A DNA stretch of 64,000 nt, taken from Bacteroidia bacterium. Its GTDB lineage: Bacteria; Bacteroidota; Bacteroidia; Cytophagales; JAAEPT01. Shown in pieces: positions 171 through 27,772 of the stretch. How positions within the stretch are numbered: the first letter of the stretch is position 1; each line of letters opens with the position of its first letter. The stretch spans positions 1 through 64,000 of the forward strand of contig JAUIJC010000016.1 of the NCBI GenBank assembly GCA_030431525.1. The letters run 5' to 3'. Both the position numbers and the translations under genes were made by a program. The notes under the pieces are model-generated. The model was not told the DNA's origin and searched no databases. It saw nothing but the letters and a program-made list of their open reading frames with translations.

Positions 171-171
171 C

Positions 172-364: not shown

Positions 365-368
365 CCCG

Positions 369-1361: not shown

Positions 1362-1393
1362 ATAAAAAAGCCATTCGGTGCGAATGGCTTTTA
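1362..1393 (-). terminator. Terminator of the sigma/anti-sigma/Spy-like operon
   Basis: On the minus strand the stem AAAGCCATTCG/CGAATGGCTTT is followed by a T-rich run. It lies just downstream of the Spy-like gene. Confidence 0.85.
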
Positions 1394-1419
1394 GTGTTAA
1401 AAGAGTTTTTTAAAAGGAA

Positions 1420-1902: not shown

Positions 1903-1913
1903 GGTGTCAGAGA

Positions 1914-2342: not shown

Positions 2343-2351
2343 GGTTAATTA

Positions 2352-2924: not shown

Positions 2925-3200
2925 TGTTTCTTGGGTTGTTTTGTCCCTTTGACTGAGAGCCCCATAAATGGTTTAATTCGAAGGAAGTAATTTTTTCTGA
3001 TACCAGAGAATACTTTCCCAAAAAAGCCATGTAAGTATATGGTTTTGCATATTGAAAAAATAAAACTTCACTAATGCAATTCCATCAAGGGATTAGATGT
3101 AGGGTTGAAAAAGTAGGTTTTGTAGTGAGTGGGCAAAGAATTATTCCTTCTTGAAGTAGGGAGGGCGGGCTAAAATCTTTCAATAGGGAGGAAACTAGGG

Positions 3201-4166: not shown

Positions 4167-4168
4167 TC

Positions 4169-5608
4169 TTAGAACTGGAAATAGACAAAGGGGGTTTCGT
4201 TTGTCTGCATAAATAAGCCTATAGAGCAACAAATAAAGGAGTAAAAGGCCCAACGTATTGGCCGTGGCCATGAATGCCCTGTTTTTTCAATCGCGTATTC
4301 ATTTTCTCTTCCAAGCCATTCAATAAGGACGAAAATGAAAATGATGAGCAAAATAAGAGTCGGGTGGTATTTTGGGCGCCCAAGCAAGCTGGAGTTAAAT
4401 ATTCCGATAATTATTTTCCAAGCATGGGTAAGGTTTTCGGCTCGAAAGAAAATCCAAGCAAAGACGGTCAAGGCAAATGTGGAAGCGATTTTTAGAAAAT
4501 CGGCAAAGCTTGGTAAAATTTTACCCTGTGACGGATTGTCAAGATTTCTCCTATTCTTCTTTCGCAGTAAAAGGGGCAGGAAGAATAATGCATTTAATGC
4601 ACCCCAAATAATAAAAGTCCAGTTGGCTCCATGCCAAAATCCACTGACAATAAAGATGATAAAGGTGTTTCTGATTTTTAACCAGAGATTTCCTTTACTA
4701 CCTCCTAAAGGAATGTACAGATAGTCCCTGAACCAAGTAGAAAGGGAAATGTGCCACCTTCTCCAAAATTCGGCTATATCCCTGGAGAAATAAGGGAAGG
4801 CAAAATTACGATTTAGGTTAAACCCAAAGAGACGAGAGGTGCCAATGGCAATGTCTGAATAGCCCGAAAAGTCACCGTAAATTTGAAAAGCAAAAAAGAT
4901 GGCGCCAAGTAACAGCGTACTTCCTTTTTCTTGGCTTGGATCTTCAAAGGCTTTATTAACGTATTCTGCACATAGGTCAGCGACGACCATTTTTTTGAAT
5001 AATCCCCACAAAATTTGGCGTAAACCGTCTACTGCTTTGTTGTAATCAAAGGTCCTTTTCTTATAGAATTGAGGTAGCAGGTTAGAGGCTCTTTCAATTG
5101 GTCCTGCTACCAATTGCGGGAAAAAGCTTACAAATGCTGTGAATGATATGAAGTCTTTAGTAGGCTTTAATTCTTTTTTGTATACATCAATAGTGTAACT
5201 CAGAGTTTGGAAGGTGTAAAAACTAATTCCTACTGGGAGAATGATGTTTAGTGACTGAACATCAATTCTTTTTCCAAAGAATAAAAAGGCGTCTACAAAA
5301 CTGTCTATAAAGAAGTTACTGTATTTGAAATATCCAAGTAATCCTAAGTTTATAATGAGACTTAACCAGAGAAGCAGTTTTCTCTTATTTGTGTTTGCTT
5401 CATTTGATAATTTCCGTCCAATTAGAAAGTCTACAACTGAACTGAAAAAAATTAAGGATAGAAATCGATAGTCCCACCATCCATAAAAAAGGTAGCTGGA
5501 GGCTGTAACAAAAAGGTTCTGGAGCTTTAGGCTTGAGTTTGTGACATACCAATAGAGGAGGAGTACTATCGGTAAGAATATGACAAAATCTATAGAATTA
5601 AAGAGCAT
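4169..5608 (-). CDS. MBOAT-family membrane O-acyltransferase (AlgI/DltB/PatA type)
   Basis: The 479-residue protein has many hydrophobic helices. The family hallmarks are present: the WRRWHISLSTWFRDYLYIPL block near residue 285 and SGFWHGANWTFIIWG, with the invariant His at about 326. These proteins move an acyl group, usually acetyl, across the inner membrane for transfer to alginate, peptidoglycan, teichoic acid or other surface glycans. It is followed after two bases by the SGNH-like partner, so the pair is a two-gene surface-polymer acylation module. No glycan synthesis genes are adjacent, so the substrate is open. Confidence 0.92.
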   Translation of the reverse strand: MLFNSIDFVIFLPIVLLLYWYVTNSSLKLQNLFVTASSYLFYGWWDYRFLSLIFFSSVVDFLIGRKLSNEANTNKRKLLLWLSLIINLGLLGYFKYSNFFIDSFVDAFLFFGKRIDVQSLNIILPVGISFYTFQTLSYTIDVYKKELKPTKDFISFTAFVSFFPQLVAGPIERASNLLPQFYKKRTFDYNKAVDGLRQILWGLFKKMVVADLCAEYVNKAFEDPSQEKGSTLLLGAIFFAFQIYGDFSGYSDIAIGTSRLFGFNLNRNFAFPYFSRDIAEFWRRWHISLSTWFRDYLYIPLGGSKGNLWLKIRNTFIIFIVSGFWHGANWTFIIWGALNALFFLPLLLRKKNRRNLDNPSQGKILPSFADFLKIASTFALTVFAWIFFRAENLTHAWKIIIGIFNSSLLGRPKYHPTLILLIIFIFVLIEWLGRENEYAIEKTGHSWPRPIRWAFYSFICCSIGLFMQTNETPFVYFQF

Positions 5609-9699: not shown

Positions 9700-10036
9700 A
9701 GAATTTTTGGTGCCGAAATCCATTTTTTGAGGGTATTCAACGCATCTCTTCTTCCTTGTTTCTCTTGAGGAAGATCCCTTCCAAAATGACAAATGGCTTT
9801 TGAGCTCATTCTGATTTCTGTTCAGGAATTCAATGGCTTCCAGTTTGGGTCATGCTTTCGATGATTTGAAGTGGAATGACCAAAAAGTGCTCATAGGAGA
9901 TAATAGGCCGTTTCAAAGGGTGTTTTGTTTATTGTTGTGTAAAAATAGTTAAACATTTTTTGTTTAAAGTTTTTGTCATTTAGGTAAACACCCTATACAT
10001 TGGATGTCGTTACATTAACCAAAACAATAGTTGATC
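9700..10036. other. Non-coding gap upstream of the fasciclin gene
   Basis: There is no credible gene in these 337 bases. The last 110 bases are very AT-rich (9930-9985) and probably hold the promoter of the fasciclin gene. I cannot place a clean Bacteroidota TTTG/TAnnTTTG pair in it. Confidence 0.4.
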
Positions 10037-12607: not shown

Positions 12608-13954
12608 TTAGAAAACACCAGTGTAAGAGAATGGTGTCGCTTTCTTCAACTCCTCTTTCACAGAGTCAGAAACGTTCAAGGTGTCAACGAATTTGTCGAT
12701 AACCTCTGCAGTGATTTTCTGGTTGGTACGGGTCAAGTCTTTCAAGGCCTCGTAAGGCTTTGGGTAACCCTCGCGACGCAATACCGTTTGGATAGCCTCG
12801 GCAACGACAGCCCAGTTGTTTTCCAAATCAGCGTTTACAGCGTCTTGGTTCAAAATCACTTTGCTCAAACCTTTGAGGGTAGAGTTCAAGGCAATAGCCG
12901 TGTGCGCCAATGGAACACCGATGTTACGGAGAACAGTGGAGTCCGTCAAGTCACGCTGTAGGCGTGAGATAGGCAATTTGGCTGAAAGGTGCTCGAACAA
13001 TGCGTTGGCGATGCCCAAGTTTCCTTCGGAGTTTTCAAAGTCGATTGGGTTGACTTTGTGAGGCATAGCCGATGAACCAACCTCGCCAGCCTTGATTTGC
13101 TGTTTGAAGTAGTCCGAAGAAATGTACTGCCAGAAGTCGCGGTCCAAGTCAATCAAAATCGTGTTGATACGCTTCAAGGCGTCAAACAAGGAAGCCAAGT
13201 TGTCGTAGTGCTCAATCTGGGTGGTGTACTGGCTGCGATCCAATCCCAACACATTGTTCACGAAGTTGTTACCGAACGTTGCCCAATCAGTCTCTGGGTA
13301 AGCGATGTTGTGTGCGTTGAAGTTACCTGTTGCACCACCGAATTTGGCAGAGAAAGGAATGGACTTCAACTGTTGTACTTGCTTGTAAATACGCTCATGG
13401 AAAACCTTCATTTCCTTACCCAATTTGGTAGGGGAGGCAGGCTGTCCGTGAGTACGCGCCAACATTGGAACATCTTTCCAATCATTCGCCAACTCGTCAA
13501 CACGCTCGAGCGCCTTTTGAATCAATGGAAGGTATTCGTTCTCGATGGCTTCTTTCAACAACAATGGCGTAGCCGTGTTGTTGACGTCCTGAGAAGTCAA
13601 TCCGAAGTGGATGAACTCCTTGAATTCTTGGATGTTGAGCTGGTCAAAACGCTTCTTGATGAAGTATTCAACGGCCTTTACATCGTGGTTAGTCACCTTT
13701 TCCTCCTCCTTGATTTCCAAGGCATTTTCCTCGGTAAAGTTGAGGTACATGTCGCGGAGAGGAGCGTAGAGGCTCTTGTCAAAGTCTTTAAGCTGAGGCA
13801 ATGGAAGCTCGCAGAGGGCGATGAAGTATTCAACTTCCACTCGGACACGGTACTTAATGAGTCCAAATTCAGAAAAATATGGGGCCAAGCCAGTGACCTG
13901 TCGGCGGTAGCGACCGTCCACAGGGGAGATTGCGGTGAGTTGATTCAAGTCCAT
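12608..13954 (-). CDS. purB: Adenylosuccinate lyase
   Basis: The 448-residue enzyme cleaves SAICAR and adenylosuccinate in purine synthesis. The fumarase/aspartase superfamily signature GSSAMPHKVNPIDFE lies near residues 293-307, with the catalytic Ser in its flexible loop. The N-terminal TAISPVDGRYRRQ and the THGQPASPTKLGKE block are typical of the E. coli-type PurB subgroup. The ATG at 13954 is preferred to an in-frame TTG at 13963. It is cytoplasmic and works as a tetramer. No other pur operon genes are adjacent. Confidence 0.97.
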   Translation of the reverse strand: MDLNQLTAISPVDGRYRRQVTGLAPYFSEFGLIKYRVRVEVEYFIALCELPLPQLKDFDKSLYAPLRDMYLNFTEENALEIKEEEKVTNHDVKAVEYFIKKRFDQLNIQEFKEFIHFGLTSQDVNNTATPLLLKEAIENEYLPLIQKALERVDELANDWKDVPMLARTHGQPASPTKLGKEMKVFHERIYKQVQQLKSIPFSAKFGGATGNFNAHNIAYPETDWATFGNNFVNNVLGLDRSQYTTQIEHYDNLASLFDALKRINTILIDLDRDFWQYISSDYFKQQIKAGEVGSSAMPHKVNPIDFENSEGNLGIANALFEHLSAKLPISRLQRDLTDSTVLRNIGVPLAHTAIALNSTLKGLSKVILNQDAVNADLENNWAVVAEAIQTVLRREGYPKPYEALKDLTRTNQKITAEVIDKFVDTLNVSDSVKEELKKATPFSYTGVF

Positions 13955-14143
13955 TACCTGCAAGAATTATTAAATCAGTTAGAAGACATTACACGAACCT
14001 TTGAGCGTGGAGTGCTGTTGGGTGTGTTCAAATTTAAGGCTACAAATATAGGGTTTTTCCCTCCTTTGTAAGTCTTTGGGGATTATAATGGAGGTTGGAT
14101 TCTCGGAAAAAAATGACAATTTTGGGAGAGGAATGCGAGGGAT

Positions 14144-15889
14144 ATGAAATCAGTATACAAGTCAGCAGTTAAGGAATTATCAGGCTTTCCAATCAAGCGG
14201 TTTTTCCAGCTTGTAACATTGGAGCGTGAGGATATCACCCTTATTTACATCTATTCCCTATTAGCGGGATTGATTAACCTCTCATTGCCCTTGGGCATCC
14301 AAGCCATTATGGCCTTGGTGATGGGAGGCACAATGTCATCCTCTTGGGTGTTGATGTTGTGTTTGGTTGTTGGGGGAATCATCTTCGGTGGTTCGTTGCA
14401 AATTATGCAGCTCACCCTTTCTGAGCGGCTTCAACAACGGATTCTTGCTCGAGCTTCTTTTGATTTTGCTTTTAGGGTTCCGCGTTGGAAGCTGGAATCC
14501 ATCCTTAAGAAATACGCGCCGGAGCTTATGAACCGCTTTTTTGACGTGATGAACGTTCAAAAGAGTTTGGCGAAAATCATGGTGGACGTTTCCACCGCCC
14601 TGTTACAGGTGGTTTTCGGTTTGTTGCTTCTGGCTGTTTACCACACCTCCTTTGCCGTATTTGGCGCACTCTCCTTTATAGGCCTTATTATTCTGTTCCG
14701 CTTCACCTTTGACAAGGGATTGGACACCAGCCTTGAGACTTCGAACCACAAGTATAAGATTGCTGAATGGTTGGAGGAGCTTGGCCGTACCATGAACATT
14801 TTCAAGTTGGCGGGTTACACGGACATGCACTTGAAGAAAACCGACCGTTTGGTGGTGGGTTATCTTAAAGCGCGTAAGGCTCACTTTAATGTGCTTCGTT
14901 CCCAGTTTACCATGATGATTGGCTTTAAGGCCCTCATTACTGGTGGGTTAGTGGTCATTGGTAGCTTGCTCGTTTTCCAGCAGGAAATCAGTATCGGTCA
15001 ATTTGTGGCCTCTGAGATTGTAATCATCTTGATTTTGGGCTCAGTTGAGAAGCTCATGAAGCATATTGAGACGATTTATGGCTTGTTGACCTCTTTGGAA
15101 AAGATTGGTAAGGTGACGGATATTCCAATTGAGGGCGAGAAAGGAATTGCCTTTGAGGATATTGATACAGGCCGAGGGGTAGAGATTGTCTTCAAGGACG
15201 TTCGATACCGTTTCCCTAAAGCTGAGCGCGAAACCCTTCGTGGATTGGACTTGCATGTGAAGCCAGGGGAGAAAATTTGTGTGGCGGGCTTTAATGGCGC
15301 TGGTAAATCGACATTGATCAACTTGGCTTCCACCATGTTGATGAACTATACTGGCCTGATCACTTTCAACGATATTTCCCTCAAAAACCTGAACCTAATC
15401 AGTTTGAGGAGCTATGTGGGTGAGAACCTTTCTACCAAGGAACTCTTGCATGGTACCATTGAGGATAATATTGGTATGGGTCGTGAGGATATTTCCTATC
15501 ACGATATCAAGAAGGCGACGGATGCTGTAGGCTTGACCGAATACATTCAGAGTACGCCTGAGGGTTTCAATACTGTTTTGGTGCCGGAGGATATTACGAT
15601 CCCGAAAAGCATTGTCAACAAGATTACCATGGCGCGAAGCATCGCGGAGAAGCCACACTTGTTTATTCTTGATGACTTTTTGGGAAGCCTTGATGCCAGC
15701 GAACAAGAAAAGATTGTGAAGTCTTTGACAGGTAGCGATAAATTCTGGACCCTTTTGGGAACCTCTCAGAAAAAGGTGTTTGCGAAACACTGTGACCGCA
15801 TTGTGGTGATGGACAAAGGGCAAATCATCGATGTGGGAGATTATGACCACATTTCTAAGAAGGATTACTTTGATGAAATCTTCGTCTAA
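14144..15889 (+). CDS. Type-I-secretion-like ABC transporter with degenerate ATPase motifs
   Basis: The 581-residue protein has an N-terminal ABC exporter membrane domain (about 30-325) and a nucleotide-binding domain (about 350-581). Walker A is intact: GFNGAGKST, 382-390, K388. Other motifs are altered. The LSGGQ signature position reads IPKSI (486-490), Walker B ends in D510-D511 where DE is usual, the switch His position is S541 in GTSQKK, and the Q-loop Gln is absent (GENLS, 426-430). It heads an operon with an HlyD-like adaptor 53 bases downstream and a TolC-like channel further on, the three parts of a type I secretion system. There is no C39 peptidase domain. The motif losses may mean slow, regulated or no ATP hydrolysis. 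Confidence 0.88.
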   Translation: MKSVYKSAVKELSGFPIKRFFQLVTLEREDITLIYIYSLLAGLINLSLPLGIQAIMALVMGGTMSSSWVLMLCLVVGGIIFGGSLQIMQLTLSERLQQRILARASFDFAFRVPRWKLESILKKYAPELMNRFFDVMNVQKSLAKIMVDVSTALLQVVFGLLLLAVYHTSFAVFGALSFIGLIILFRFTFDKGLDTSLETSNHKYKIAEWLEELGRTMNIFKLAGYTDMHLKKTDRLVVGYLKARKAHFNVLRSQFTMMIGFKALITGGLVVIGSLLVFQQEISIGQFVASEIVIILILGSVEKLMKHIETIYGLLTSLEKIGKVTDIPIEGEKGIAFEDIDTGRGVEIVFKDVRYRFPKAERETLRGLDLHVKPGEKICVAGFNGAGKSTLINLASTMLMNYTGLITFNDISLKNLNLISLRSYVGENLSTKELLHGTIEDNIGMGREDISYHDIKKATDAVGLTEYIQSTPEGFNTVLVPEDITIPKSIVNKITMARSIAEKPHLFILDDFLGSLDASEQEKIVKSLTGSDKFWTLLGTSQKKVFAKHCDRIVVMDKGQIIDVGDYDHISKKDYFDEIFV

Positions 15890-15942
15890 GAATCCCTTGG
15901 AAAGCAGAACGGAAAATTCCCATTAGATTTTAAGAGGCGGTC

Positions 15943-17340
15943 ATGCTGAACATTTCTAAAAACACCATCGACGAGTTTATCAGCGATCAGGACTATAAGG
16001 CTTTTGAGATTGTTACCAATCCTTATAAAGCCAAGGCCCTTGCTCGTTGGTTATTGGTATTTGTCATCATTTTCATTGGCGTATTGTTTCTTCCATGGAC
16101 GCAGTATGTAGAAGTGGCAGGAAACGTCACCATCCGAAATCCTGAGCAACGTCCCCAAACGATTCAGGCCGTTATTCCTGGCCGAATCCAAAAATGGCAT
16201 GTTCAAGAGGGTGAATTGGTTGATTCAGGGGCAATCATTGTCAGCTTGACTGAAATCAAGTCCGAGTACTTTGATAAGGATTTGATTGCAAGAACCCGCG
16301 ATCAGCTTAAAACCAAGGTGGCTTCCATTGAGGTTTACAAACAAAAAGTAGATGCCTTGAAGGCTCAGCGTGCAGCCTTGCAACAAGCTCGAGACTTGAA
16401 GCTGAATCAAACCCGCACTAAGGTTCGCCAAAAAGTGCTGAAAGTTCAGGCGGATAGTGCTAAATACGAGGCAGCTAAAGTGGCTCGCAAAAACGTCAAG
16501 CTGGATTACGAGCGAACAAAAAGCTTGGTAGATCAGGGAATTAAATCCCTACGTGATTTGCAGGAGAAAGAAAGCAAGTTGCAAGAGTATGATGCCAAAC
16601 TTCGGGTAGCGCAAAATTCTTGGGAGTCCACTCAAGCCGACCTTTTGAATACTCAAGTTGAGGTAACCAGTGTTCAAGCCCAGTATGCTGATAAACTGGC
16701 TAAGAACCTTTCGGATATTTCATCGGCAGAATCGGCAATGTTTGATGCGCAGGTGACTGTTTCCAAGTTGCGTGTGACCTTATCCAACTATGAAACTCGT
16801 GGTGGAAACTACTTGATTCGCGCTCCGCAAAAGGGTTATGTGACCAAGGCCATGGAAACTGGTGTTGGCCAGATTGTGAAGGAGGGTTCTCCTGTGGTCA
16901 CCTTTATTCCATACAACCATGATGTGGCGGCGGAGCTTTATGTGGACGCTACCGATATTCCTTTGATTGGTCGTAACCACAAAGTGCGTTTGCTCTTCGA
17001 CGGTTGGCCTTCTGTTTATGTTTCTGGTTGGCCAGATGCTTCTTACGGTATGTTCAGTGGTGAAATCATCGCTGTGGACAACGTGATTAGTGCCAACGGG
17101 AAATACCGTATTCTTGTAGTTCCTGACAATGATGAGTTGGTAGGTGGACCGTGGCCGCATGCCCTAAGAATGGGAGCGGGTGTCCAAGGAATGGCTTTAC
17201 TTAACGAAGTGCCTGTATATCGTGAGATTTGGCGTAAGCTAAATGGCTTCCCGCAGGCGTTCTATGATGAGTATCAGCCGCACACCTACATCCACGAGAA
17301 GCAGAAGAAGGAAAAGAAGAAGAAGGATAAAAAGAAATAA
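15943..17340 (+). CDS. HlyD-family membrane fusion protein
   Basis: The 465-residue adaptor has a cytoplasmic N-terminus of about 30 residues, one membrane helix (about 35-55, WLLVFVIIFIGVLFLPW) and a periplasmic part. A biotinyl-lipoyl half (VIPGRIQKWHVQEGELVDSG) precedes a long alpha-helical hairpin rich in K, Q and A (about 110-270). The second lipoyl half (YLIRAPQKGYVTKAMETGVG) and a beta-barrel follow. The last 20 residues are nearly all Lys and Glu. It should link the ABC protein to the TolC-like channel. The lysine-rich tail is unusual for HlyD proteins. Confidence 0.92.
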   Translation: MLNISKNTIDEFISDQDYKAFEIVTNPYKAKALARWLLVFVIIFIGVLFLPWTQYVEVAGNVTIRNPEQRPQTIQAVIPGRIQKWHVQEGELVDSGAIIVSLTEIKSEYFDKDLIARTRDQLKTKVASIEVYKQKVDALKAQRAALQQARDLKLNQTRTKVRQKVLKVQADSAKYEAAKVARKNVKLDYERTKSLVDQGIKSLRDLQEKESKLQEYDAKLRVAQNSWESTQADLLNTQVEVTSVQAQYADKLAKNLSDISSAESAMFDAQVTVSKLRVTLSNYETRGGNYLIRAPQKGYVTKAMETGVGQIVKEGSPVVTFIPYNHDVAAELYVDATDIPLIGRNHKVRLLFDGWPSVYVSGWPDASYGMFSGEIIAVDNVISANGKYRILVVPDNDELVGGPWPHALRMGAGVQGMALLNEVPVYREIWRKLNGFPQAFYDEYQPHTYIHEKQKKEKKKKDKKK

Positions 17341-17351
17341 GCAAAAGAAAA

Positions 17352-17493
17352 ACAATAAGCTGACCCAGTCGTCTTGTTCGTTTGCCCGCTGTTCGTAGCA
17401 AGTTGATTTGCGATAGCTACGGCTATCCCTGCATCAACTTGCCACAAACAGCGAACAAAATAACTGCGCCTTAGTGGGCCAGTTTATTATTTC
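17352..17493. repeat. Intergenic nested inverted repeat between hlyD-like and tolC-like genes
   Basis: Three levels of symmetry share one centre. The outer arms AACAATAAGCTGACCCA and TGGGCCAGTTTATTATT face each other. Inside them are GTTCG/CGAAC arms with GCTGTTCG/CAGCGAAC, then GCAAGTTGAT/ATCAACTTGC, then GATAGC/GCTATC at the centre (about 17420). The outer arm resembles 59513-59600 (ACAATAAGC, CAGTCG, CTTGTTC, GCTGTTCGT). It could form a large cruciform or RNA stem within the operon. Confidence 0.75.
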
Positions 17494-17522
17494 ACTTTAG
17501 CTAAGGGGAATTGTGCTGTGTT

Positions 17523-18992
17523 ATGAAGAAGTCTTGTCTAATGGCAGGTAAGTGTTTTTTCAAGGGGGCTTTTGTTAGCCTCCTTCTTCTCTTTGCTGCA
17601 AACCGATCATTCGCTCAGGTTATAGATACCCTTGTGGATCTGGACGTTCAGGTATTGACCTACGAGAAGTTTTTGGAGATGGTGCGGGCAACCCATCCCA
17701 TGGCCAAACAAGCTGATATCGTAGCTGAGAAAGGAAAAATGCAGCTCCGCAAATCACGCGGTGTTTTTGATCCTTATCTGGAAGGCTGGTACAAGGACAA
17801 GTATTTCAAGGAAAGTAATTACTATGAAACCTTCCATGGAGGTTTGGTAATTCCTACTTGGTTTGGTGCTTCTGTAAAGGCTGGATGGGATTATAATGAT
17901 TCTAATGGTGTCCACTTCAATGAAGAGTATTATACTCCAAGTGCAGGGACGGCTTATTTAGGGGTTTCTGTACCTGTTGGTGCAGGGCTTATCATGGACA
18001 AGCGTCGTTTGGAGCTTCGAAAGGCCCAAGCATTTCAGCAATCCTCCGATCAGGAAAGAATTTTAATGCTCAACACTTTGTTGTTGGACGCCACTAAATC
18101 CTATTGGGATTGGATGGAGGCGTATAATCAGTTGATGGTAGCTGAGCGCTCATTGGAAATTGCGAGAGTCCGAATTGCAGCTGTGCAATCCAGCTATGAA
18201 CAGGGCGATTTAGCGGCCATGGATACTTTGGAGGCTTATACCCAGCTTCAGGCCATTCAGCTTAGTGCTTATGACGCTCGAGTGAATTTGCAGAACACAA
18301 GCCTTTATCTTTCTATTTATCTTTGGGATGAGGAGGTTAAGCCTTTAGAGTTGACGGAAAAGATGAGGCCTGTCCTTTCCAGTGAGGTGAAAAAATATCG
18401 TAGGTTAGAAGAGACCCGCGCTTTGGTGGATTCTTCGGAGCAATTATTGGCAAACCATCCAATTCTTGCCCAGTACCGATTGAAAATGCAGGCCTTGAGG
18501 GTCGAGCGCAGGTACAAGGCTAACAACCTCTTACCAAAATTGAAGTTTGAATATAGCTTCCTTGCACCTGGAGATAAATTGAAAGTTTCTGGTTCCAATT
18601 ATAAATGGGGATTCTCCGTGTATTATCCTCTTTTCCTTCGTGAAGCGAGAGGTGATTTGAGAATTGCAGATTTGAAATTGCAGGAAACAGAGTTTAAGCT
18701 TCGTCAAAAGAACTTGGAGCTAAAAAACAAACTCTTGGCTTCGCAGAACAAGTTGTTGACGCTAGAGGAACAGATTAAGTTGTACGAAAGTGCGAGCTAC
18801 AACTACCAACGCCTTTTGGAATTGGAGGAGATTAAGCTTCAAAGCGGTGAGAGTTCCCTGTTTAAGGTGAATGAGCGTCATCAGAAGATGCTTAATGCCC
18901 AAATGAAGTTGTTGAGCTTGCAGACAAAATATCTTCAGGAGCGTGCAGGATTGTTTTGGGTGGCGGCTGTGCTGACCAACTTTACAGATTAA
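17523..18992 (+). CDS. TolC-family outer membrane efflux/secretion channel
   Basis: From the ATG at 17523 the product has 489 residues; the frame opens earlier at a TTG (17511). A signal peptide ends near SFAQ (about residue 32). The body has the two-fold pattern of long amphipathic helices and short strands of TolC proteins, for example QLMVAERSLEIARVRI and LLELEEIKLQSGESSLFKVN in the second half. It is the outer membrane exit for the ABC/HlyD pair upstream and belongs to the same operon by orientation, although 182 bases with a large hairpin separate it from the hlyD-like gene. Confidence 0.9.
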   Translation: MKKSCLMAGKCFFKGAFVSLLLLFAANRSFAQVIDTLVDLDVQVLTYEKFLEMVRATHPMAKQADIVAEKGKMQLRKSRGVFDPYLEGWYKDKYFKESNYYETFHGGLVIPTWFGASVKAGWDYNDSNGVHFNEEYYTPSAGTAYLGVSVPVGAGLIMDKRRLELRKAQAFQQSSDQERILMLNTLLLDATKSYWDWMEAYNQLMVAERSLEIARVRIAAVQSSYEQGDLAAMDTLEAYTQLQAIQLSAYDARVNLQNTSLYLSIYLWDEEVKPLELTEKMRPVLSSEVKKYRRLEETRALVDSSEQLLANHPILAQYRLKMQALRVERRYKANNLLPKLKFEYSFLAPGDKLKVSGSNYKWGFSVYYPLFLREARGDLRIADLKLQETEFKLRQKNLELKNKLLASQNKLLTLEEQIKLYESASYNYQRLLELEEIKLQSGESSLFKVNERHQKMLNAQMKLLSLQTKYLQERAGLFWVAAVLTNFTD

Positions 18993-19418: not shown

Positions 19419-22400
19419 CTAAAGCTGAATACCAATTAAAAGCACATCATCGGTTTGTTTTCCAGTGCCTTGCCATTCATTAAATGAACAGGAAAGAGAA
19501 TCTTTGATGATGCCAAACGGCTTTCCAGCATTTTCTTGCACCAAGTTTTTGATGCGTCGTGGGCCAAACTTCCTTTGGGATGGACCGCCGAATTGATCAG
19601 GGAAGCCATCGGAGAAGAAGTAAAGGGCGTCACCCTGTTCCACAGGAATCTGATGAGTGGTGAACTTCTTGTTTTCGTAGGCGCTGCCACCACCAATCGG
19701 GAATTTGTCACCTTTGGTTTCAATCAATTCACCGTCTGGTTTAATAAGGTAGAGTGGGCGTTGTGCTCCTGCATATTCCAGTGTGGAATGATCATCACTG
19801 ATTTTGCAAAGGGCGATATCCATTCCATCTTTCACCTCACCGTCTGTGTTACCCTGTTTTAGGGTGTGGCCCAGACGTTCATCCAAAAGGTCAAGAATTG
19901 TCCCTGGACAATTTGCCTCTTCATTCTTCACAATGTCATTGAGCAGGAAGTAGCCAATGATGGAAAGCATGGCGCCAGGCACACCGTGACCAGTACAGTC
20001 CACAGCGGCAATATAGGTGAAGCCATTTTTCTTCATCATCCATGGGAAGTCACCACTAACGACATCCTTGGGACGGAAGAAAATAAAGGAGTTTGGCAGC
20101 GATTGCTGCAAGATGGACTCATGCGGAAGAATGGCATTCTGCAAATGCTCCGCATAGTTGATACTATCGTTGATCTTACGGTTTTTCCGCTTGATTTCGT
20201 TCTCTGTGGCTTTTTGCTCGGTAATGTCGTGGCTTACCACAAGGATGGATTCCAATTCCTCGTGTTCGTTGAATTCAGGAATGGCGTTTACAGCCATCGT
20301 CCGCTCGCCTTTGGTGGATGGAAGATCCAGTTCCACATTGACTTTTGAGCGATTTTCCGTCACCTGATCCACCAGCTCAGAGAGGTGGGTGGTGATTTTC
20401 TCATCCAGCCCACTTAGTGTGAGCATCTTGTTCCGCAACTCCTCAGGACGTTTTCCTGTCAGGTTGGTGATGGCTGGGTTGGAATAGAAGAAGGTTTTTT
20501 GACGGCTAATTCGCGTGATGATATCTGGAGAGTTTTCCGAAAGGGCCTGCATCTGACCACGCTTCCTTTCTTCCTGTTCTGCCCTTAAACGTTCCGTAAT
20601 GTCGCGGTAGTTTACAACAATCCCTTGGATGGCAGGATTCTCCAACATATTTCGCCCAGTAGCCTCCAGCCAGATTTTATCTCCCGTTTTACGGTAGTAG
20701 CTGATGGTTACAGTTTCAAGGCAACTGTCGTCATTGAGTAGGCGCTCAAACATTTCCCGCACCAACCCTTGCTCATTCTTATGGACAAAGTTGATGTCTC
20801 GGGAGCCAATCATTTCCTCTGGGCGGTAGCCCAAAATATGCTCCACAGAAGGGCTGACATATTGGACAGTTCCTTCTTCATCATAAATGGTAATTACCTC
20901 AGAGGCGTTTTCAAGAAGTGCCTGAATACGGTGTTGAGCATTGTTCACCTCTGTGATTTGATGTTCCAATGCTTTGTTCGCCTCTTGGATTTCTTCCTGA
21001 GAGGCTGCCATTTTCAAAGCGTTTTCCTGAAGCTCCTTTTGGCGCTCTTGGAGAATGACGTTCATCTCCTCCGATTGCTCGTGGAGGCGTTGCTTTTCTT
21101 CCTGATGCTTGGTGTTGGAAATGGTTTGGGCGATAATTTCGCTTACCTCCTCCAAGAATTGAATCTCGCCCTCAGAGAACTTGTGGAAGCTTACAAGTTC
21201 AAGTACGCCATATACCGTTTCATTGGTGATAAGTGGAATGATGGCGATGCAGGTAGGGGACTGAGTTTCCAACAAACCCGAACTCACATGCATGTAGTCA
21301 TTCGGGATTTCAGTTCTGAGGATGGTATCCTTTTCAAGAACAGCTTGGCCAATCAGTCCTTCACCAACTTCAAACTTGGCATCAATGTATTTTTTGCGCT
21401 CATAGGCGTAACTGGCCCTCAGGTCAATCACGGAATTGTTGCCATCTTGTTTTTCAACAACAAAGAACCCGCCCTGAATGGCATCAACACGCTGACAAAG
21501 GTATTGGAGCAGTTCATCGCCCAATTGGGTCAGGGTTTTTGTTTCACGAAGGATTTCACCTGTTTCGGCAATACCCAATACAATCCAGTTTCGCAGTGCG
21601 TCATTCGTTTCCGCTTTATGAAGGCTGGAGCGCATGTTTACCAGTGCCTGACCCAGAATATCACGGTCACTCAAAGGTTGGAAGGAGGAGTAGAAATGCC
21701 CTTCACCAATTTTTCGTGCAAAATCTGCAGTGTGGCGCAGGTTGTAAACCAATTGGTTTAGGGTGGCAATCATTTCCCCAATTTCATCTTTCCAAGGGGT
21801 CTTCAATTTTGGAGGGAGAACACCCTGACTGATGAGCATCAAAGCCTGTTTCAGTTTGATGAGTGGTTGGGTAAGAATTTGACTTGTATGGAAGCTGATG
21901 AGCGAAGTCAAAAGAATCAGCACAAGGCCACAGGTTCCTGCAACATAAAGGAAGTCAGCCAAGGTATTTCCAAAGACTCGACTCTCGAATGTGGCCATGA
22001 TGCCAATATCGAAGTTGCTGGAATGCTTCCAATAGGAGAGTTGTTCCTCGCCGTTCGGGAAGGTGTAGAAACCATGCTCGGTAATGTCCGAGGAAGCAGA
22101 GCGATAAAATGGATCCTCACCTTTTGGCTTGAAGCTCGAGACGTTTCCGCCAAGTTCTTCAGGCCATTCATTGTGCAAATAGAAAATCCCCTGCGGACTA
22201 TCCTGATAACAGAATAGGTGCATTTGGGGGTGAGTAGTTAAGATTTTTTCTCGGAAATGCTCAAGGATGGGAACAATGTCCAACTTGCCTACAATGGCCC
22301 CGACCACCTTATTGTTTTCATCCAAAATAGGAAGGGAGAGATAGGCGAAGGAAGCAATCTTTCCCGCTTTGGGCTCTAAGGTTGGTTTGTTGACATAAAA

Positions 22401-22910
22401 GTGAGGCTTGTACGGGTCAATGGTGCTGTTGTTCAGGTTATGGAACTGCACGTTGTTTAGCTCCAAATCCTCTTGGTGATACAGCAGACGCCCATTTCCG
22501 TTTACCACATAAATGTCTTTGTAACCAAAATTCTTGGTGAAGGAGTTTAAATAGTTTTCCCTTAGCAATGCCCTTTTCTCCTTGGCAATCGCACGCAGGG
22601 AGTCGTTGTGGCTATGAGTGATGCCTCGAAGCTCCCACAGCTTTTTACCGATTTCTCCTTGGGTGAGAAATTCCAATTCATGGCGGCGTTCCTCAAAATG
22701 CGCCTCCAGTTTCTGTTCAAAGTTTTCTACCGCCAATTTTAAGCGGTCTTCATCCCTTTCCCGAATAATCTGTTTGGTGGTCAAAAAAGTGAACAGGCTT
22801 TCGGCCAGTACCGAGCCACTGACCAATACAAACACCAACAGTAACACCTTCAGGGAAACAGGAATTCGCCGTAGAAATGATGCCATAGAGGAGTAGTTAT
22901 GTTTTTTCAA
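19419..22910 (-). CDS. Cache-HAMP-GAF-PAS-PAS-SpoIIE membrane phosphatase
   Basis: The 1163-residue protein has a membrane helix at about 17-37, a periplasmic Cache-like sensor to about 315, a second helix (about 318-340), HAMP (about 345-410), GAF (about 470-590), a coiled coil (about 590-665), two PAS domains (about 665-775 and 785-900) and a C-terminal PP2C/SpoIIE phosphatase (about 920-1163). The phosphatase keeps the metal-binding residues in VVSGDF, AAVDCTGHGVPGAM, FSDGFPDQFGG and TDDVLLIGI, so it should be active on a phospho-Ser/Thr protein, typically an anti-sigma-antagonist. No STAS or kinase partner is adjacent. It is the last gene of a three-gene run starting at 25686. A second ATG at 22886 is also possible. 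Confidence 0.9.
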   Translation of the reverse strand: MKKHNYSSMASFLRRIPVSLKVLLLVFVLVSGSVLAESLFTFLTTKQIIRERDEDRLKLAVENFEQKLEAHFEERRHELEFLTQGEIGKKLWELRGITHSHNDSLRAIAKEKRALLRENYLNSFTKNFGYKDIYVVNGNGRLLYHQEDLELNNVQFHNLNNSTIDPYKPHFYVNKPTLEPKAGKIASFAYLSLPILDENNKVVGAIVGKLDIVPILEHFREKILTTHPQMHLFCYQDSPQGIFYLHNEWPEELGGNVSSFKPKGEDPFYRSASSDITEHGFYTFPNGEEQLSYWKHSSNFDIGIMATFESRVFGNTLADFLYVAGTCGLVLILLTSLISFHTSQILTQPLIKLKQALMLISQGVLPPKLKTPWKDEIGEMIATLNQLVYNLRHTADFARKIGEGHFYSSFQPLSDRDILGQALVNMRSSLHKAETNDALRNWIVLGIAETGEILRETKTLTQLGDELLQYLCQRVDAIQGGFFVVEKQDGNNSVIDLRASYAYERKKYIDAKFEVGEGLIGQAVLEKDTILRTEIPNDYMHVSSGLLETQSPTCIAIIPLITNETVYGVLELVSFHKFSEGEIQFLEEVSEIIAQTISNTKHQEEKQRLHEQSEEMNVILQERQKELQENALKMAASQEEIQEANKALEHQITEVNNAQHRIQALLENASEVITIYDEEGTVQYVSPSVEHILGYRPEEMIGSRDINFVHKNEQGLVREMFERLLNDDSCLETVTISYYRKTGDKIWLEATGRNMLENPAIQGIVVNYRDITERLRAEQEERKRGQMQALSENSPDIITRISRQKTFFYSNPAITNLTGKRPEELRNKMLTLSGLDEKITTHLSELVDQVTENRSKVNVELDLPSTKGERTMAVNAIPEFNEHEELESILVVSHDITEQKATENEIKRKNRKINDSINYAEHLQNAILPHESILQQSLPNSFIFFRPKDVVSGDFPWMMKKNGFTYIAAVDCTGHGVPGAMLSIIGYFLLNDIVKNEEANCPGTILDLLDERLGHTLKQGNTDGEVKDGMDIALCKISDDHSTLEYAGAQRPLYLIKPDGELIETKGDKFPIGGGSAYENKKFTTHQIPVEQGDALYFFSDGFPDQFGGPSQRKFGPRRIKNLVQENAGKPFGIIKDSLSCSFNEWQGTGKQTDDVLLIGIQL

Positions 22911-22931
22911 ATCCTGAACCGAGGTTCAGCA

Positions 22932-23783
22932 TCAGTGATGTTTTTTCACGTTTGTTTGCGAAGGGGTGCCAAGGGCTTCACCCAACTGTGTGGCCATCCA
23001 AGTCAAAAAGGAAATGTCCTCTTCAGAAAATGCTCTGAAGGTTGCCAGTTCAAACACGGCCAAGGTTTCTTGCTTGTGAACAATTGGAAGCAAACACAAG
23101 TGGGTAGGGGCTGAGTTCCCTAAACCAGTGGCTGTTTCCATGAGGTGTTCAGCAGGGATTTGTCCTAAAAAAATTGGACGTTGATTTTGGGCAACCTGTC
23201 CCACAAGGCCTTCGCCAAATGCGAATTCGCGCTCTCTTTTGGAGGCGGAGACTGCGTATCCGCCAATGACTTTTAAGGTAGCATCACCCTTGGTTTTCAT
23301 GCTTTTGAAAACAAGCCCTTGAATAATTTCAAGTTCTGGAGCAATCAGGGTCAGCAGGTGTGCGTAGAATTTCTCATCACTTTGCTCCGAAGCGCCAGCA
23401 AAACAAGTCGCCAAATCATTTTTAAGGCTTTCAAGGTTTGATGAGTCATCAAGGCATTTCTCGGATTTTTCTTCCTTCTCAGCGGCACTTTCGGTTGTAG
23501 GCAGGGTTTGCTCCAACCAAAGTTCCATGGGGTCCTTTTGATGCTTCAGGTAGTAGAGGAAAAACAGGCCAATGAAGCCTGCCGTGAGTTCCAAAAAGGC
23601 CAAACCTGTAAGCCAATTCACCTCGGTGGGGAGGTGATCAGGAATTCCACATTCAGGCATATCCGCCAAATGCACTACAAAATTCTGCAGCGTGTGGATG
23701 GCGTGAATGTTCATCAGGGCAATCGCCAAAAAGACGCCCACCACAGCCAGAAACGTTTTGTTCTTTACAAACTTTTTGGGCAT
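22932..23783 (-). CDS. Membrane-anchored GAF-domain protein
   Basis: The 283-residue protein has two membrane helices (about 8-30 and 58-80) joined by a short loop with two Cys, then a linker and one GAF domain (about 130-270). The GAF domain keeps the FGEGLVGQVAQNQRPIFLGQI pattern shared with the neighbouring proteins. There is no catalytic or output domain. It lies 4 bases after the HAMP-GAF gene and 21 bases before the phosphatase gene, so the three should be one transcript. A role as a sensory accessory to the phosphatase is inferred from context only. Confidence 0.8.
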   Translation of the reverse strand: MPKKFVKNKTFLAVVGVFLAIALMNIHAIHTLQNFVVHLADMPECGIPDHLPTEVNWLTGLAFLELTAGFIGLFFLYYLKHQKDPMELWLEQTLPTTESAAEKEEKSEKCLDDSSNLESLKNDLATCFAGASEQSDEKFYAHLLTLIAPELEIIQGLVFKSMKTKGDATLKVIGGYAVSASKREREFAFGEGLVGQVAQNQRPIFLGQIPAEHLMETATGLGNSAPTHLCLLPIVHKQETLAVFELATFRAFSEEDISFLTWMATQLGEALGTPSQTNVKKHH

Positions 23784-23787
23784 GGGA

Positions 23788-25686
23788 TTATTCTTGTTTT
23801 TGACGGAGCTTTTGGATTTTCAAGTCCTTCAGGCGGAGACTTTCTTGGAGGTCGGAAATTCGATCCTCTTGGCTTTGGAGATTTTCCTTCAGCTTCTCAG
23901 AACTAATTTGAAGGGCCTCGTTTTCACTTTCTTGTGATTGAAGTTGTTCCTTCAGGGCTTCCAACTCCTTAGTAAGCTGCTGCTTGGTGGTGAGCAACTC
24001 CTCATTTTTCTTCTGGAGTTTTTCGCTAATGTGTACCACCTGTTTTTCTTGGATGAATGCCTCACGTTGGGCAATCTGTTTGGCGGACTCAAGTTCCTGA
24101 AGCTTTTTGAGGGTAGAATCCTCTTGTTCCTGCAGCTTTTTTGTGAGTTCCTGAGAGGCTTGCAACAATGTTTGTGTGCGGTTGCTGATTTCCACAGCAG
24201 AAAGGCTGGAGGCAATGTTTTCTCCTACCTTCTCTACAAAATCAATCTGGTGTTTTTCTAAGAGGTAGAGCGAGGCAATTTCAATGATGCCGTAGATTTT
24301 CCCCTTGTTGATGAGCGGCACCACCAATAGGTTTGTTGGCTTGGCTTGCCCAAGACCAGACTGAATATTTGAATGTTCTTCAGGGAGTTCTTGGATGTGG
24401 ATGGTTCCACCTTCCTGCCAAGCTTGACCCGCCAAGCCTTCACCCATTTCAAAGGATCGCTTCAGGAATTTTCTGCGGCCATAAGCCGTGCAGGCTACCA
24501 AATCCAAGGTTTCTTTTCCGTTGGCGTCCTTCACTACAAACAAGCCGCCCTGCTGACCATTGACATATTGAACAAGAGAGGAAATAACCTTGTCAGCCAA
24601 ATGGTTGAAATCACCTTTTTCATGGAGGATTTCAGACAAAAGGGCTTGGCCTTTAATGTTCCAGTTTCGCTTGTTTTCCTGTTCTCTCAGGCTTGAAAGC
24701 TCGGTGAGCATTCGATGTAATGATTGACCAAGTGGACGTTCGCGGTTCTGTTTTGGGAGGTGAGGGCTTGCATCCAGTTTGCCTTCTGTGATTTCATCCA
24801 CAAAGACTCGCGCTTCTCTGATGTCAGAAGACAAGGTGGACAATAGGCCAAAAAGTTCACCCATTTCCATGTTTCGCTTTGGCGGTAGAATGTCGCCCTT
24901 TGCCGTTTTTAGGAAACGTTCGCCTTGTTTGCTTAATGCTTGAATAGGAACCAGAATGTTGCGTTTGAGGAACCAATACACCCAAGCAATTAGGGCGATG
25001 TTCAAAAGGATGATTACCCCATTGATAAGCTTGTAGCGGAAAGTTGCTTCTCCAAGATTTTCTAAGTGGCGCTCCTGAAAGTGAACTAACTCTTCAGAAA
25101 GGTGGCTGGCCAAAAATTGAATATTCGCCAATGCCTGTTGAGCTGCTGGCGACAAGACCATGGCATTTCGGTGGAATTTCTCGATGGCCTTGGTGCGTTC
25201 ACCTCTTCGGTAAAGCTGAACCTCACGGATTTCAGTCAGGACGCTATCCACCAAAATATCCTCATAAAGGATATGGTTGATGTTTTGTTTGATGATTTCC
25301 CACTTCTCATAGTTGTACATCAACATAATGGCCTGTTCTGGAGATTCAGGCGAGAGGTGGAGGGCAAGGCTGTCCTTAGCGTAAGGACGGTAGCGTTGAT
25401 ATTCGAGAGTGAATAGAATATTCTGGAAAGCGGATTCGAAGTTCTTTTGCTGCTTGGCAAAGTACTTTCGGTGGTCCTCTGGTGCCTCAGAAAAGTTGTG
25501 GGCGTGGGTGCTCAGGTTGATGAGCGTGTTTTCCAGTTGAGTAACATTGTCCAGCAAACCTTGTTGTTTTTCCAAGGATTGGTGCAACATGTAGGCGCCA
25601 ATTAAACTGGCCACAAAAAATACGGCAACGGAAAGGAAAAGAATTGTGAGCTGTCTTTTCAGCGAGGGTAGTTTTCCTTTCTTCAT
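23788..25686 (-). CDS. HAMP-GAF-coiled-coil membrane sensor without output domain
   Basis: The 632-residue protein starts with a membrane helix at about 12-33. A helical periplasmic sensor region (about 34-210) resembling four-helix-bundle or CHASE3-type sensors follows, then a second membrane helix (about 217-240), a HAMP-like linker (about 241-300) and a GAF domain (about 350-500) with FEMGEGLAGQAWQEGG and TNLLVVPLINKGKIYGIIE. The final 125 residues are an uninterrupted coiled coil rich in E, Q, K and L. No kinase, cyclase or phosphatase domain is present, so the coiled coil may pass signals by binding a partner. It is the first gene of the run that ends with the SpoIIE protein. Confidence 0.85.
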   Translation of the reverse strand: MKKGKLPSLKRQLTILFLSVAVFFVASLIGAYMLHQSLEKQQGLLDNVTQLENTLINLSTHAHNFSEAPEDHRKYFAKQQKNFESAFQNILFTLEYQRYRPYAKDSLALHLSPESPEQAIMLMYNYEKWEIIKQNINHILYEDILVDSVLTEIREVQLYRRGERTKAIEKFHRNAMVLSPAAQQALANIQFLASHLSEELVHFQERHLENLGEATFRYKLINGVIILLNIALIAWVYWFLKRNILVPIQALSKQGERFLKTAKGDILPPKRNMEMGELFGLLSTLSSDIREARVFVDEITEGKLDASPHLPKQNRERPLGQSLHRMLTELSSLREQENKRNWNIKGQALLSEILHEKGDFNHLADKVISSLVQYVNGQQGGLFVVKDANGKETLDLVACTAYGRRKFLKRSFEMGEGLAGQAWQEGGTIHIQELPEEHSNIQSGLGQAKPTNLLVVPLINKGKIYGIIEIASLYLLEKHQIDFVEKVGENIASSLSAVEISNRTQTLLQASQELTKKLQEQEDSTLKKLQELESAKQIAQREAFIQEKQVVHISEKLQKKNEELLTTKQQLTKELEALKEQLQSQESENEALQISSEKLKENLQSQEDRISDLQESLRLKDLKIQKLRQKQE

Positions 25687-25984
25687 GTATATAGTGTGTT
25701 TTCTATGAGAAAGTAGGGAAGACCTGTACAGTGGTCTGTTCCATCTGTAAACTCGTTTGGTTTGGAAAAAGGTCTTGTAAAATGCTTTTTTGCAGAGACC
25801 AATTAATTTTCCAACCTTCTTTAAAGATATGTAATTTATACATGAAGATTTAGCTGAAACGCCATTTTCATAGTATTTTTAAAGGAAGGCCCGTAGGATA
25901 AGTTCCTACATGCAGGGAATTAAGACGTTATTCCTTTTGTTTCCTTGTGTATGGATAAGGTTTGCCCTTTAGTCCCCACCATAT
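25687..25984. promoter_or_regulatory. Divergent promoter region of two HAMP-GAF genes
   Basis: These 298 non-coding bases separate the start codons of two paralogous HAMP-GAF genes pointing away from each other. Both promoters must lie here. A strongly AT-rich stretch runs from about 25800 to 25880. I cannot name precise boxes. Confidence 0.5.
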
Positions 25985-27772
25985 ATGAAATTAAACTTTA
26001 ACAATCAGGCGAATGCCAATGAGGAGGAGCTCAACCAGTTTGGCGTTGGGAATTTCTTTCGGCTGAACATTGGCAGAAAGCTGATGATTGGCTTCGGCCT
26101 TTTCCTTTTCAGTATCCTTTCCTTTGGACTCTTTATCTGGAGGCCTATCCAGAAAAATAAGGAGCTCAACGAAGTAAGTGCTCAGGTTTACGCACCTTCT
26201 ATTGACGCGCTCAAAGATTTGAAATTCAATGTGCTGTCATCGCAGTCGCTCATGGGGGTGTGGCTGACGGTGGACAAGGACTTGGGTGATGAGGATGCCA
26301 AGGGCAAGCGCGATTTGGTGCAAATCCATGAATATGATTATCCGAAAATCAAGCAAGATTTGAGGATGTTGATGGGGCGCTGGGATGGTGACGACCGTTT
26401 GTTGATGGACTCCGTTTTTAATCGCATTGATTCACTGATGGCTTTTGAGCATGAATTGATGGTGGAGTTTAGTGAGAGTGAGGTGTATTGGATTCCTTAT
26501 GAAAATGTTGACCGAAGAAAAGTCTATCGCGAGAGTTTGGCCCATGGCCCGTTGAGCGATAAGGTCATTAATATAGTGGAGGGGCTTCGCGATGTTACCC
26601 ATCGATTGGAGAACAAGTCGCGGACCTACAGCCACCAAATGCACGACTCGCTGAACATGCTCGACCAATTGGTGTGGTCGCTCATGATTTTGCTTTTTGT
26701 AGTTGGAATTACCGTAGCCTTCTTTACCATTCGATCGATTGTTCGGCCAGTTTCTCAGCTGAAGGATGCCCTGTTGACGATGGGGCAAGGAGTTCTTCCG
26801 CAGAGTAGAGTGCGGGAAGGGAATGATGAGATTGGGCAGATGTCCATGGCCTTGAACAACCTTATTAGTGGTTGGCGTCGTACGTCGGAGTTTGCCAAGG
26901 AAATTGGAGAAGGTAACCTGAAATCGGAGTATGAGCCATTGAGTGAAGAGGATTTGTTGGGTAACTCCCTGCTCCGAATGCGTGAAAAACTGGCAAGAGT
27001 GGCCGAGGAGGAAGGCAAGCGAAGCTGGTCTTCGGAAGGTCTCACGATGTTCAGTGAGGTGCTGCGCAAGAACAACGACAACATGGATGCCCTTTGTCGT
27101 GCACTTATTTCCGCATTGGTGAAATACTTGAATGCCAACCAAGGCGGCATGTTTGTATTGAACAATGACGGTGATGAGCACTTCATGGAGTTGAGGGGCT
27201 GTTATGCGTGGGACCGATATAAGTACAACGAGGAAAAAATTTTCTTGGGAGAAGGCCTTGTAGGCCAAGTGTGGCAGGAAAAAGGAAGCATGTATTTGAC
27301 TGACATTCCTGAGGACTATATTTCTATCGTTTCAGGATTGGGAGAAGCTTCACCGAAGAATTTGTTGGTTGTTCCAATGATTTCCAACGACACCGTATTT
27401 GGTGTGATTGAGTTGGCTTCTTTCGACGAAATGGATGATTACCAAGTTCGTTTTGTTGAGCGTTTGGCTGAAAGTATCGCCACCACCATCGCGGCAGTGA
27501 AGGTAAATGAGCGAACAAAAATCTTGTTGGGTCGCTATGAAAAGGCGTCCGAGCAAATGAAAGACAAGGAGGAGGAGCTTAAGCACAGCCAAATTGCCAT
27601 GGAAGAAGCTCAGCAAAAAATGTCCTTGCAGTTGGAAAGCTTGGTGATTGAAGTTCAGAAACATCGCAAAAAGGAAAAGCTTCTGATGGAAGAGAATACA
27701 ATGCTTCAGGAGCGGGTGAGAAGTGTGGCGATTGAGCTTGAGGAAGTGAAAAGAGAATTTAATCTTCAATAG
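25985..27772 (+). CDS. HAMP-GAF-coiled-coil membrane sensor, divergent paralogue
   Basis: The 595-residue protein has the same order as the product of the gene at 23788: membrane helix (about 32-54), helical periplasmic sensor (about 55-220), membrane helix (about 222-245), HAMP (about 246-305), GAF (about 350-500) with FLGEGLVGQVWQEKGSMYL and KNLLVVPMISNDTVFGVIE, then a coiled coil to the end. It lacks an output domain. The GAF and HAMP parts (GQGVLPQSRVREGNDEIGQM) resemble the matching parts of the SpoIIE protein (SQGVLPPKLKTPWKDEIGEM) closely, so the cluster grew by duplication. It has its own terminator. Confidence 0.87.
   Translation: MKLNFNNQANANEEELNQFGVGNFFRLNIGRKLMIGFGLFLFSILSFGLFIWRPIQKNKELNEVSAQVYAPSIDALKDLKFNVLSSQSLMGVWLTVDKDLGDEDAKGKRDLVQIHEYDYPKIKQDLRMLMGRWDGDDRLLMDSVFNRIDSLMAFEHELMVEFSESEVYWIPYENVDRRKVYRESLAHGPLSDKVINIVEGLRDVTHRLENKSRTYSHQMHDSLNMLDQLVWSLMILLFVVGITVAFFTIRSIVRPVSQLKDALLTMGQGVLPQSRVREGNDEIGQMSMALNNLISGWRRTSEFAKEIGEGNLKSEYEPLSEEDLLGNSLLRMREKLARVAEEEGKRSWSSEGLTMFSEVLRKNNDNMDALCRALISALVKYLNANQGGMFVLNNDGDEHFMELRGCYAWDRYKYNEEKIFLGEGLVGQVWQEKGSMYLTDIPEDYISIVSGLGEASPKNLLVVPMISNDTVFGVIELASFDEMDDYQVRFVERLAESIATTIAAVKVNERTKILLGRYEKASEQMKDKEEELKHSQIAMEEAQQKMSLQLESLVIEVQKHRKKEKLLMEENTMLQERVRSVAIELEEVKREFNLQ

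Follow-up and report, generated by a model that had tools for sequence, protein, structure and literature searches.

The signalling systems closest to the locus considered here are the SiaABCD system of Pseudomonas aeruginosa, the RsbK-RsbM-RsbY system of Bacillus cereus and the chemotaxis receptors. As the first is presented in PMC7647112 and PMC8457831, SiaA is a membrane phosphatase with HAMP and PP2C domains, and the phosphorylation of SiaC at T68 depends on the balance between SiaA and SiaB (PMC7647112). In the account given in PMC4574943, RsbK is a CHASE3-HAMP-GAF-signalling helix kinase, the signalling helix of which is methylated by RsbM, and the pathway ends in RsbV/RsbW partner switching. 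Chemotaxis receptors, as described for Tsr (PMC1079850), have a layout of transmembrane (TM) helix, helical sensor, TM helix and HAMP, and carry Glu-Glu pairs seven residues apart in an EExxA(S/T) context; the methylation sites listed for FrzCD are E168, E175 and E182 (PMC2535941). Here we describe a cluster of four genes for membrane GAF proteins, P0001 to P0004, in a stretch of 64,000 nucleotides (hereafter the window) from a Bacteroidia bacterium of the Cytophagales (assembly GCA_030431525.1, contig JAUIJC010000016.1, positions 1 to 64,000 of the forward strand), the genome of which measures 4.24 Mb and is 99.97% complete. The four genes are the remnant of a gene set that is widespread in Bacteroidota. 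With a probability of roughly 0.58, we propose that they are a reduced and rewired form of a module in which methylation-tuned GAF receptors act on SiaA, not on CheA.

The cluster consists of the following features, with domains computed by Pfam and lengths in amino acids (aa):

23788..25686, minus strand: P0001, 632 aa, receptor-like, with a helical sensor between two hydrophobic helices, a HAMP-like region, a GAF domain and a coiled-coil tail
24205..24609, minus strand: GAF domain of P0001 (GAF_2, 3.9e-13, residues 360-494)
23791..24201, minus strand: coiled-coil tail of P0001, with an eroded methylation-type helix
22932..23783, minus strand: P0002, 283 aa, two-helix GAF protein
22971..23267, minus strand: GAF domain of P0002 (GAF_2, 3e-12, residues 173-271)
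19419..22910, minus strand: P0003, 1163 aa, SiaA-type phosphatase with dCache, HAMP, GAF, coiled-coil linker, PAS, PAS and SpoIIE/PP2C
22011..22766, minus strand: dCache sensor region of P0003 (dCache_1, 3e-7, significant but under the curated cut-off)
21735..21878, minus strand: HAMP region of P0003 (HAMP, 1.3e-4; 22.6 bits against a cut-off of 25, slightly short)
21120..21539, minus strand: GAF domain of P0003 (GAF_2, 2.6e-17)
20211..20930, minus strand: two PAS domains of P0003 (PAS, 1.3e-19; PAS_4, 1.8e-20)
19425..20018, minus strand: SpoIIE/PP2C phosphatase domain of P0003 (SpoIIE, 5.7e-18)
25985..27772, plus strand: P0004, 595 aa, receptor-like, with a helical sensor between TM helices, HAMP, GAF and a 110-residue C-terminal helix
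26723..26863, plus strand: HAMP domain of P0004 (HAMP, 2e-8, residues 247-293)
27080..27490, plus strand: GAF domain of P0004 (GAF_2, 1.4e-17, residues 366-502)
27491..27769, plus strand: C-terminal helix of P0004

An original prediction, made from the window alone, had described four clustered GAF open reading frames of which one has an output domain, and had placed three of them in one tight run. Both statements are borne out. GAF_2 lies above the Pfam cut-off in all four proteins; PAS, PAS and SpoIIE do so in P0003 alone, and P0001 and P0004 have no output domain in the Pfam scan. P0001, P0002 and P0003, which lie 4 and 21 bases apart, form a minus-strand run, from which P0004 diverges across 298 bases next to P0001. 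The GEGLxGQ block attributed to the four GAF proteins is found in each of them, and the accompanying LVVP/VFGVIE pair, judged by eye, is good in two, recognisable in P0003 and weak in P0002. Of the two supposed HAMP-GAF-coiled-coil proteins, P0004 has HAMP above the cut-off and P0001 has none detected by Pfam, and in the supposed Cache-HAMP-GAF-PAS-PAS-SpoIIE protein the last four domains stand with HAMP and dCache below their cut-offs. The TTG start of P0003 is probably too early; an in-frame ATG nine codons in, at about 22886, agrees with the start positions of relatives. An AlphaFold2 model of P0004 reached a predicted local distance difference test score of 78 and a predicted template modelling score of 0.44, which is low; among the 50 matches listed in a fold search with this model, nearly all contain GAF, which is uninformative on the sensor or tail.

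The grouping of these genes far exceeds what chance would give: of 10 GAF_2 matches in the genome, which also has 12 SpoIIE matches, four lie in the cluster, and in none of 200,000 random placements did four of ten fall within 8.4 kb. Recent tandem duplication can be ruled out as its origin because the GAF domains belong to distinct families. In a GAF tree the family of short proteins with two TM helices (2TM-GAF) forms one group, the SiaA family another, and the receptors make up the remainder; the GAFs of P0002 and P0003 lie in the two separate, well-supported families, and those of P0001 and P0004 are not sisters. In relatives, the orthologue of P0002 is the 2TM-GAF gene ahead of siaA (clade support 100/99).

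P0003 likewise places its GAF within the SiaA clade (support 100/98), and its last 260 residues align with the solved phosphatase of P. aeruginosa SiaA (6k4e, E 3.6e-32), its best solved relative. The best full-family name is again SiaA, with 185.7 bits against NF038263, the NCBIfam SiaA equivalog, for which the cut-off of 700 is not reached; by its sequence P0003 is thus to be classed as a SiaA-like relative, not as an equivalog. The SGD, DCTGHG, DGMD, SDG and DD blocks are intact in it and invariant across 17 orthologues, itself included, in an alignment that covers the HAMP-GAF-PAS-PAS-SpoIIE part. Like the phosphatase of the SiaABC partner switch, P0003 combines a SpoIIE/PP2C domain with a membrane anchor, a sensor and HAMP. 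Compared with the P. aeruginosa protein as it is described in PMC7647112 and PMC8457831, however, the Cytophagales SiaA is roughly double the length, with one GAF and two PAS domains in addition.

What surrounds siaA in relatives was computed from two sets of loci. A search with P0002 matched 35 of 59 genomes, the own genome included, and 20 stretches were taken around the best short homologues; a scan with a SiaA alignment gave at least 80 loci, of which L089-L109 were counted, L110 was annotated yet left out and L111-L168 lie outside the count. With L055 and L096 counted once, because they are the same record, 40 distinct loci remained, 37 of them with SiaA. Two proteins caught by the receptor model, L068_GAFx452 and L089_GAFx635, are SpoIIE proteins and were dropped. 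In 33 of the 37 siaA loci both siaB and siaC follow the SiaA-type phosphatase gene; cheR and cheB both precede it in 32, and an ATP-binding cassette (ABC) transporter is also present in 32. The 2TM-GAF gene is found in 34 of 37, a frequency which, like that of SiaA, is inflated because the first 20 stretches were picked by the former gene and the later ones by the latter; the other frequencies are not affected. Some of the missing operon genes reflect contig ends (L098, L100, L106). At one operon (L067) Pfam reads CheR, a CheB that has the catalytic domain but no receiver, GAF, SiaA, DUF6272 (which NCBIfam names as the SiaB family), SiaC and a transporter of TerB-ABC type, with no GGDEF among the proteins scanned there. 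Thus relatives encode the SiaB kinase and SiaC phosphoprotein beside the phosphatase, as in P. aeruginosa, and in contrast to SiaABCD as covered by PMC7647112 and PMC8457831 the operon adds CheR, receiver-less CheB, 2TM-GAF and ABC genes. On the point of whether the set is scattered in relatives, the original prediction is supported, output-less GAF and SpoIIE proteins sharing a conserved neighbourhood. Its statement that no STAS partner is nearby is true of the window, where neither siaB nor siaC lies beside P0003, but not in general, as the STAS-like SiaC and SiaB directly follow the phosphatase in those 33 loci. No literature on a link between CheR/CheB and SiaABC was found in open-licence PubMed Central.

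Some of these loci have additional neighbours. At L101 a canonical chemotaxis set (CheA-CheW-CheW-CheR-kinase-CheD-CheB, the last receiver-bearing; 3-5263) stands directly before the Sia operon, and in L102 and L108 a CheB of receiver-bearing length is upstream of it. Just past the operon of L089 (20172-23543), SiaC and a SiaB relative of 366 aa accompany a second SpoIIE protein, which has 623 aa. The full operon is present in two cultured relatives, Flexithrix dorotheae (L103) and Chryseolinea lacunae (L091). In many operons a pair of genes of about 300 and 145 aa comes after the ABC transporter, for example at L101 17020-18489, where neither has a Pfam match. Stand-alone genes for receiver-less CheB were considered as a further link to receptors and set aside: in 20 extra stretches most of the low-scoring CheB genes are near other large proteins and are of another type.

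P0001 and P0004 resemble the receptors of the relatives' operons in the order TM, helical sensor, TM, HAMP or HAMP-like region, GAF and helix. Each of ten operon receptors scanned has GAF, in some cases together with PAS, but kinase, cyclase, phosphatase and MCPsignal domains are absent from all ten. GAF is also present in each of 20 further helix proteins, sampled at about every eighth row of the best-scoring matches and hence biased to well-conserved helices; output domains and MCPsignal are missing from the whole sample. MCPsignal is absent from P0001 and P0004 as well, and no histidine kinase follows the helix in these two or in the relatives scanned. The helix itself is invariant in 12 operon receptors at L3, Q17, E18, E19, R22, Q23, E26, E27, A30, T31, Q32, E33 and E34. 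Its Glu-Glu pairs are seven residues apart, with a central pair EExxAT that matches the chemoreceptor methylation consensus EExxA(S/T), and in 18 of the 20 sampled proteins the central pair fits EExx(A/S)(S/T).

To the chemotaxis receptors, as far as PMC1079850 describes them, the likeness therefore lies in the layout from TM to HAMP and in these pairs, together with the CheR and CheB of the relatives' gene set; the difference is that the GAF receptors scanned lack the MCPsignal hairpin and have GAF between HAMP and helix. RsbK-RsbM-RsbY is the nearest published parallel. According to PMC4574943, however, RsbK contains a histidine kinase domain and a receiver, unlike receptors of the window type; RsbM is an orphan methyltransferase that has no esterase as its counterpart, whereas relatives here have both CheR and CheB; and RsbK is one receptor, where the genomes of relatives have between 3 and 39 matches to the helix.

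Co-occurrence was computed with a 40-residue profile of the helix, searched in 59 genomes, with statistics on the 58 relatives and the own genome left out. Thirty relatives carry the helix, each with between 3 and 39 matches. It is present in 30 of 40 genomes with CheB and in none of 18 without, and in 30 of 39 with SiaC and none of 19 without; taken jointly, in 30 of 33 with both, and in none with CheB alone (7), SiaC alone (6) or neither (12). The Fisher values of 2.9e-8 for CheB and 7.3e-9 for SiaC overstate the evidence, as the genomes are related. Half of the helix-bearing relatives (15 of 30) have no MCPsignal domain. Since seven relatives with a single SiaC carry 3 to 39 helix matches, it is plausible that many receptors feed one phosphatase pathway. 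SiaC has also expanded in some genomes, with 42, 19 and 14 matches in G046, G012 and G003, where every other genome with SiaC has between 1 and 13.

Which parts of the module has the window genome lost? It has no CheB match, and its single CheR match is false, being inside a protein read by Pfam as MMPL, acyltransferase and methyltransferase; a true CheR is therefore lacking. MCPsignal is also absent. One SiaB and two SiaC are above the cut-off, one SiaC beside SiaB on contig C70 and the other an orphan on C26. In both trees the C70 pair falls among the non-operon pairs from other genomes (SiaB support 100/99), and the 33 operon SiaC proteins with one further G003 row form a single clade, in a SiaC tree whose support is rough and in which long branches were flagged. 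The trees thus rule out the C70 pair as the displaced operon pair, and because it groups with non-operon pairs, the operon's own siaBC has been lost. SiaC of the window genome matches 6kko/6k4f around the threonine site, and the C70 SiaC retains the TSS site known from P. aeruginosa.

The helix has decayed along with these losses. In the tail of P0001 the relatives' Glu-Glu pairs are replaced by DS, QE and QI, and in P0004 the second and third pairs by IA and QK, so that the heptad-spaced EExxA(S/T) sites are eroded in both proteins. Helix identity divided by GAF identity gives 1.07-1.50 for 15 receptors that have cheB alongside, as against 0.53, 0.58, 0.88 and 1.14 for the four receptors of the window genome (rank test p 0.004, with L105 left out); the helix is eroded in three of the four. 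Searched over the whole genome, the helix profile has one match there, at E 1.2e-9. The two receptors outside the window are output-less GAF proteins on G000:C46 (L079 7422-9428) and G000:C73 (L080 7443-9089), and the latter keeps its Glu-Glu pairs intact in a genome without CheB. L105, once regarded as an independent che-less case, was withdrawn, as CheB is present elsewhere in its genome.

From this we infer, the first of them from sequence, methylation of the helix, coupling of receptors to SiaA and the substrate of P0003. In typical relatives the module comprises output-less receptors, CheR, receiver-less CheB, the 2TM-GAF protein, SiaA, SiaB, SiaC and the ABC transporter. Receptors would pass a sensed signal through HAMP and GAF to the coiled-coil helix, the Glu-Glu pairs of which would be methylated by CheR and demethylated by CheB to reset the receptor as in chemotaxis. 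In place of the CheA kinase they would act on a sister protein, SiaA, which has the same HAMP-GAF-helix order, probably through mixed coiled-coil assembly and together with the 2TM-GAF protein; the level of SiaC phosphorylation, set by SiaA against SiaB, would be the output. In the window genome, P0001, P0002 and P0004 may be non-adapting inputs to P0003, because CheR, CheB, the operon SiaB and SiaC and the helix sites have been lost. With operon siaBC lost, the likely substrate of P0003 would be the C70 SiaC or the orphan on C26. The predicted multi-input phosphatase array thus survives in a version with chemosensory-type receptors, to which the conserved neighbourhood and the plausible convergence on one phosphatase lend support.

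Several observations weigh against methylation-tuned receptors acting on SiaA. The profile of the helix has no significant match among solved chemoreceptors (6db1, E 0.48), its best match being a designed coiled coil, and a 15-receptor profile that does match Tsr (E 4.4e-6) does so chiefly via TM2 and HAMP. The Glu pairs are degenerate in the receptors of L067, L069 and L070 despite an adjacent cheB, the helix of L105 is eroded (ratio 0.66) despite CheB in the same genome, and the pairs in the SiaA linker vary widely even next to cheB, for which reason the linker is weakly supported as a second methylated site. Erosion is seen in one genome. At the level of families, 13 agree on presence, seven on absence and two disagree, the genomes not being independent. 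Invariant Gln, Arg and Asn in the helix, which methylation does not explain, and the fact that an output-less GAF receptor is nearby in only 16 of 37 siaA loci bear on two alternatives as well.

In one of these, the helix would be a surface for binding or oligomerisation, for example in mixed receptor-SiaA coiled coils, and the targets of CheR and CheB would lie elsewhere, in SiaA, in the 2TM-GAF protein or in unrelated proteins. This comes near to the original prediction, which took the tails for protein-binding arms. The invariant residues beside the Glu pairs would suit it, SiaA carries a related linker, and a binding surface would likewise co-occur with SiaC. On the other hand, the helix fits the methylation consensus with heptad spacing, and it is missing from all six SiaC-bearing relatives without CheB, which a pure role in binding SiaA does not predict. 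We regard this explanation as unlikely, though one to be reckoned with, and the tails are better read as an adaptation helix of the chemoreceptor type, because the Glu-Glu pairs are heptad-spaced in most relatives and are found only with CheB and SiaC. It is also rather improbable that the receptors report to the ABC transporter or to some histidine kinase instead of SiaA, and share the locus only by common descent and gene dosage: most receptors of each genome are indeed located away from the operon, yet SiaC is present in all 30 helix-bearing relatives, 15 of these have no MCPsignal receptors, and in several families a receptor lies within the operon (as does a helix-bearing one in L184) or divergent to it (as does another in L188). 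That the window cluster is a decaying relic without function hardly deserves credence, for despite the loss of CheR, CheB and operon siaBC and the eroded receptor helices, its four reading frames are intact where a relic is expected to carry stops, the GAF identity of P0001 and P0004 to relatives is ordinary (0.39-0.46) and the phosphatase blocks of P0003 are preserved.

If methylation-tuned receptors do act on SiaA, a wider proposal follows, which we make tentatively, our doubt being a shade stronger than our belief: Bacteroidota may have a second chemosensory system, in which families of GAF receptors, numbering up to dozens in a genome and adapted on a chemoreceptor-like helix by CheR and receiver-less CheB, signal via SiaA-SiaB-SiaC without the hairpin of methyl-accepting chemotaxis proteins or CheA, and of which the window genome, with its decayed sites, would be a natural loss experiment. 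Many of these genomes have CheR and CheB without an obvious substrate, as in the 15 helix-bearing relatives with CheB and no MCPsignal. Were the GAF receptors that substrate, methylation-based adaptation would operate outside the CheA array and feed a phosphatase switch, providing a candidate route of chemosensing for those Bacteroidota that lack a classical chemotaxis array and tying SiaABC signalling to large receptor families. The window genome would serve as a loss case for reading site conservation.

Elsewhere in the window, a single run of ABC transporter, HlyD-type and outer-membrane efflux genes (14144-18992) adjoins the cluster and lies outside the conserved module. A long open reading frame antisense to the adenylosuccinate-lyase gene (13097-14071) has no Pfam match and is probably not a gene, and at 10031-12421 one protein combines five fasciclin domains with a Por secretion tail.

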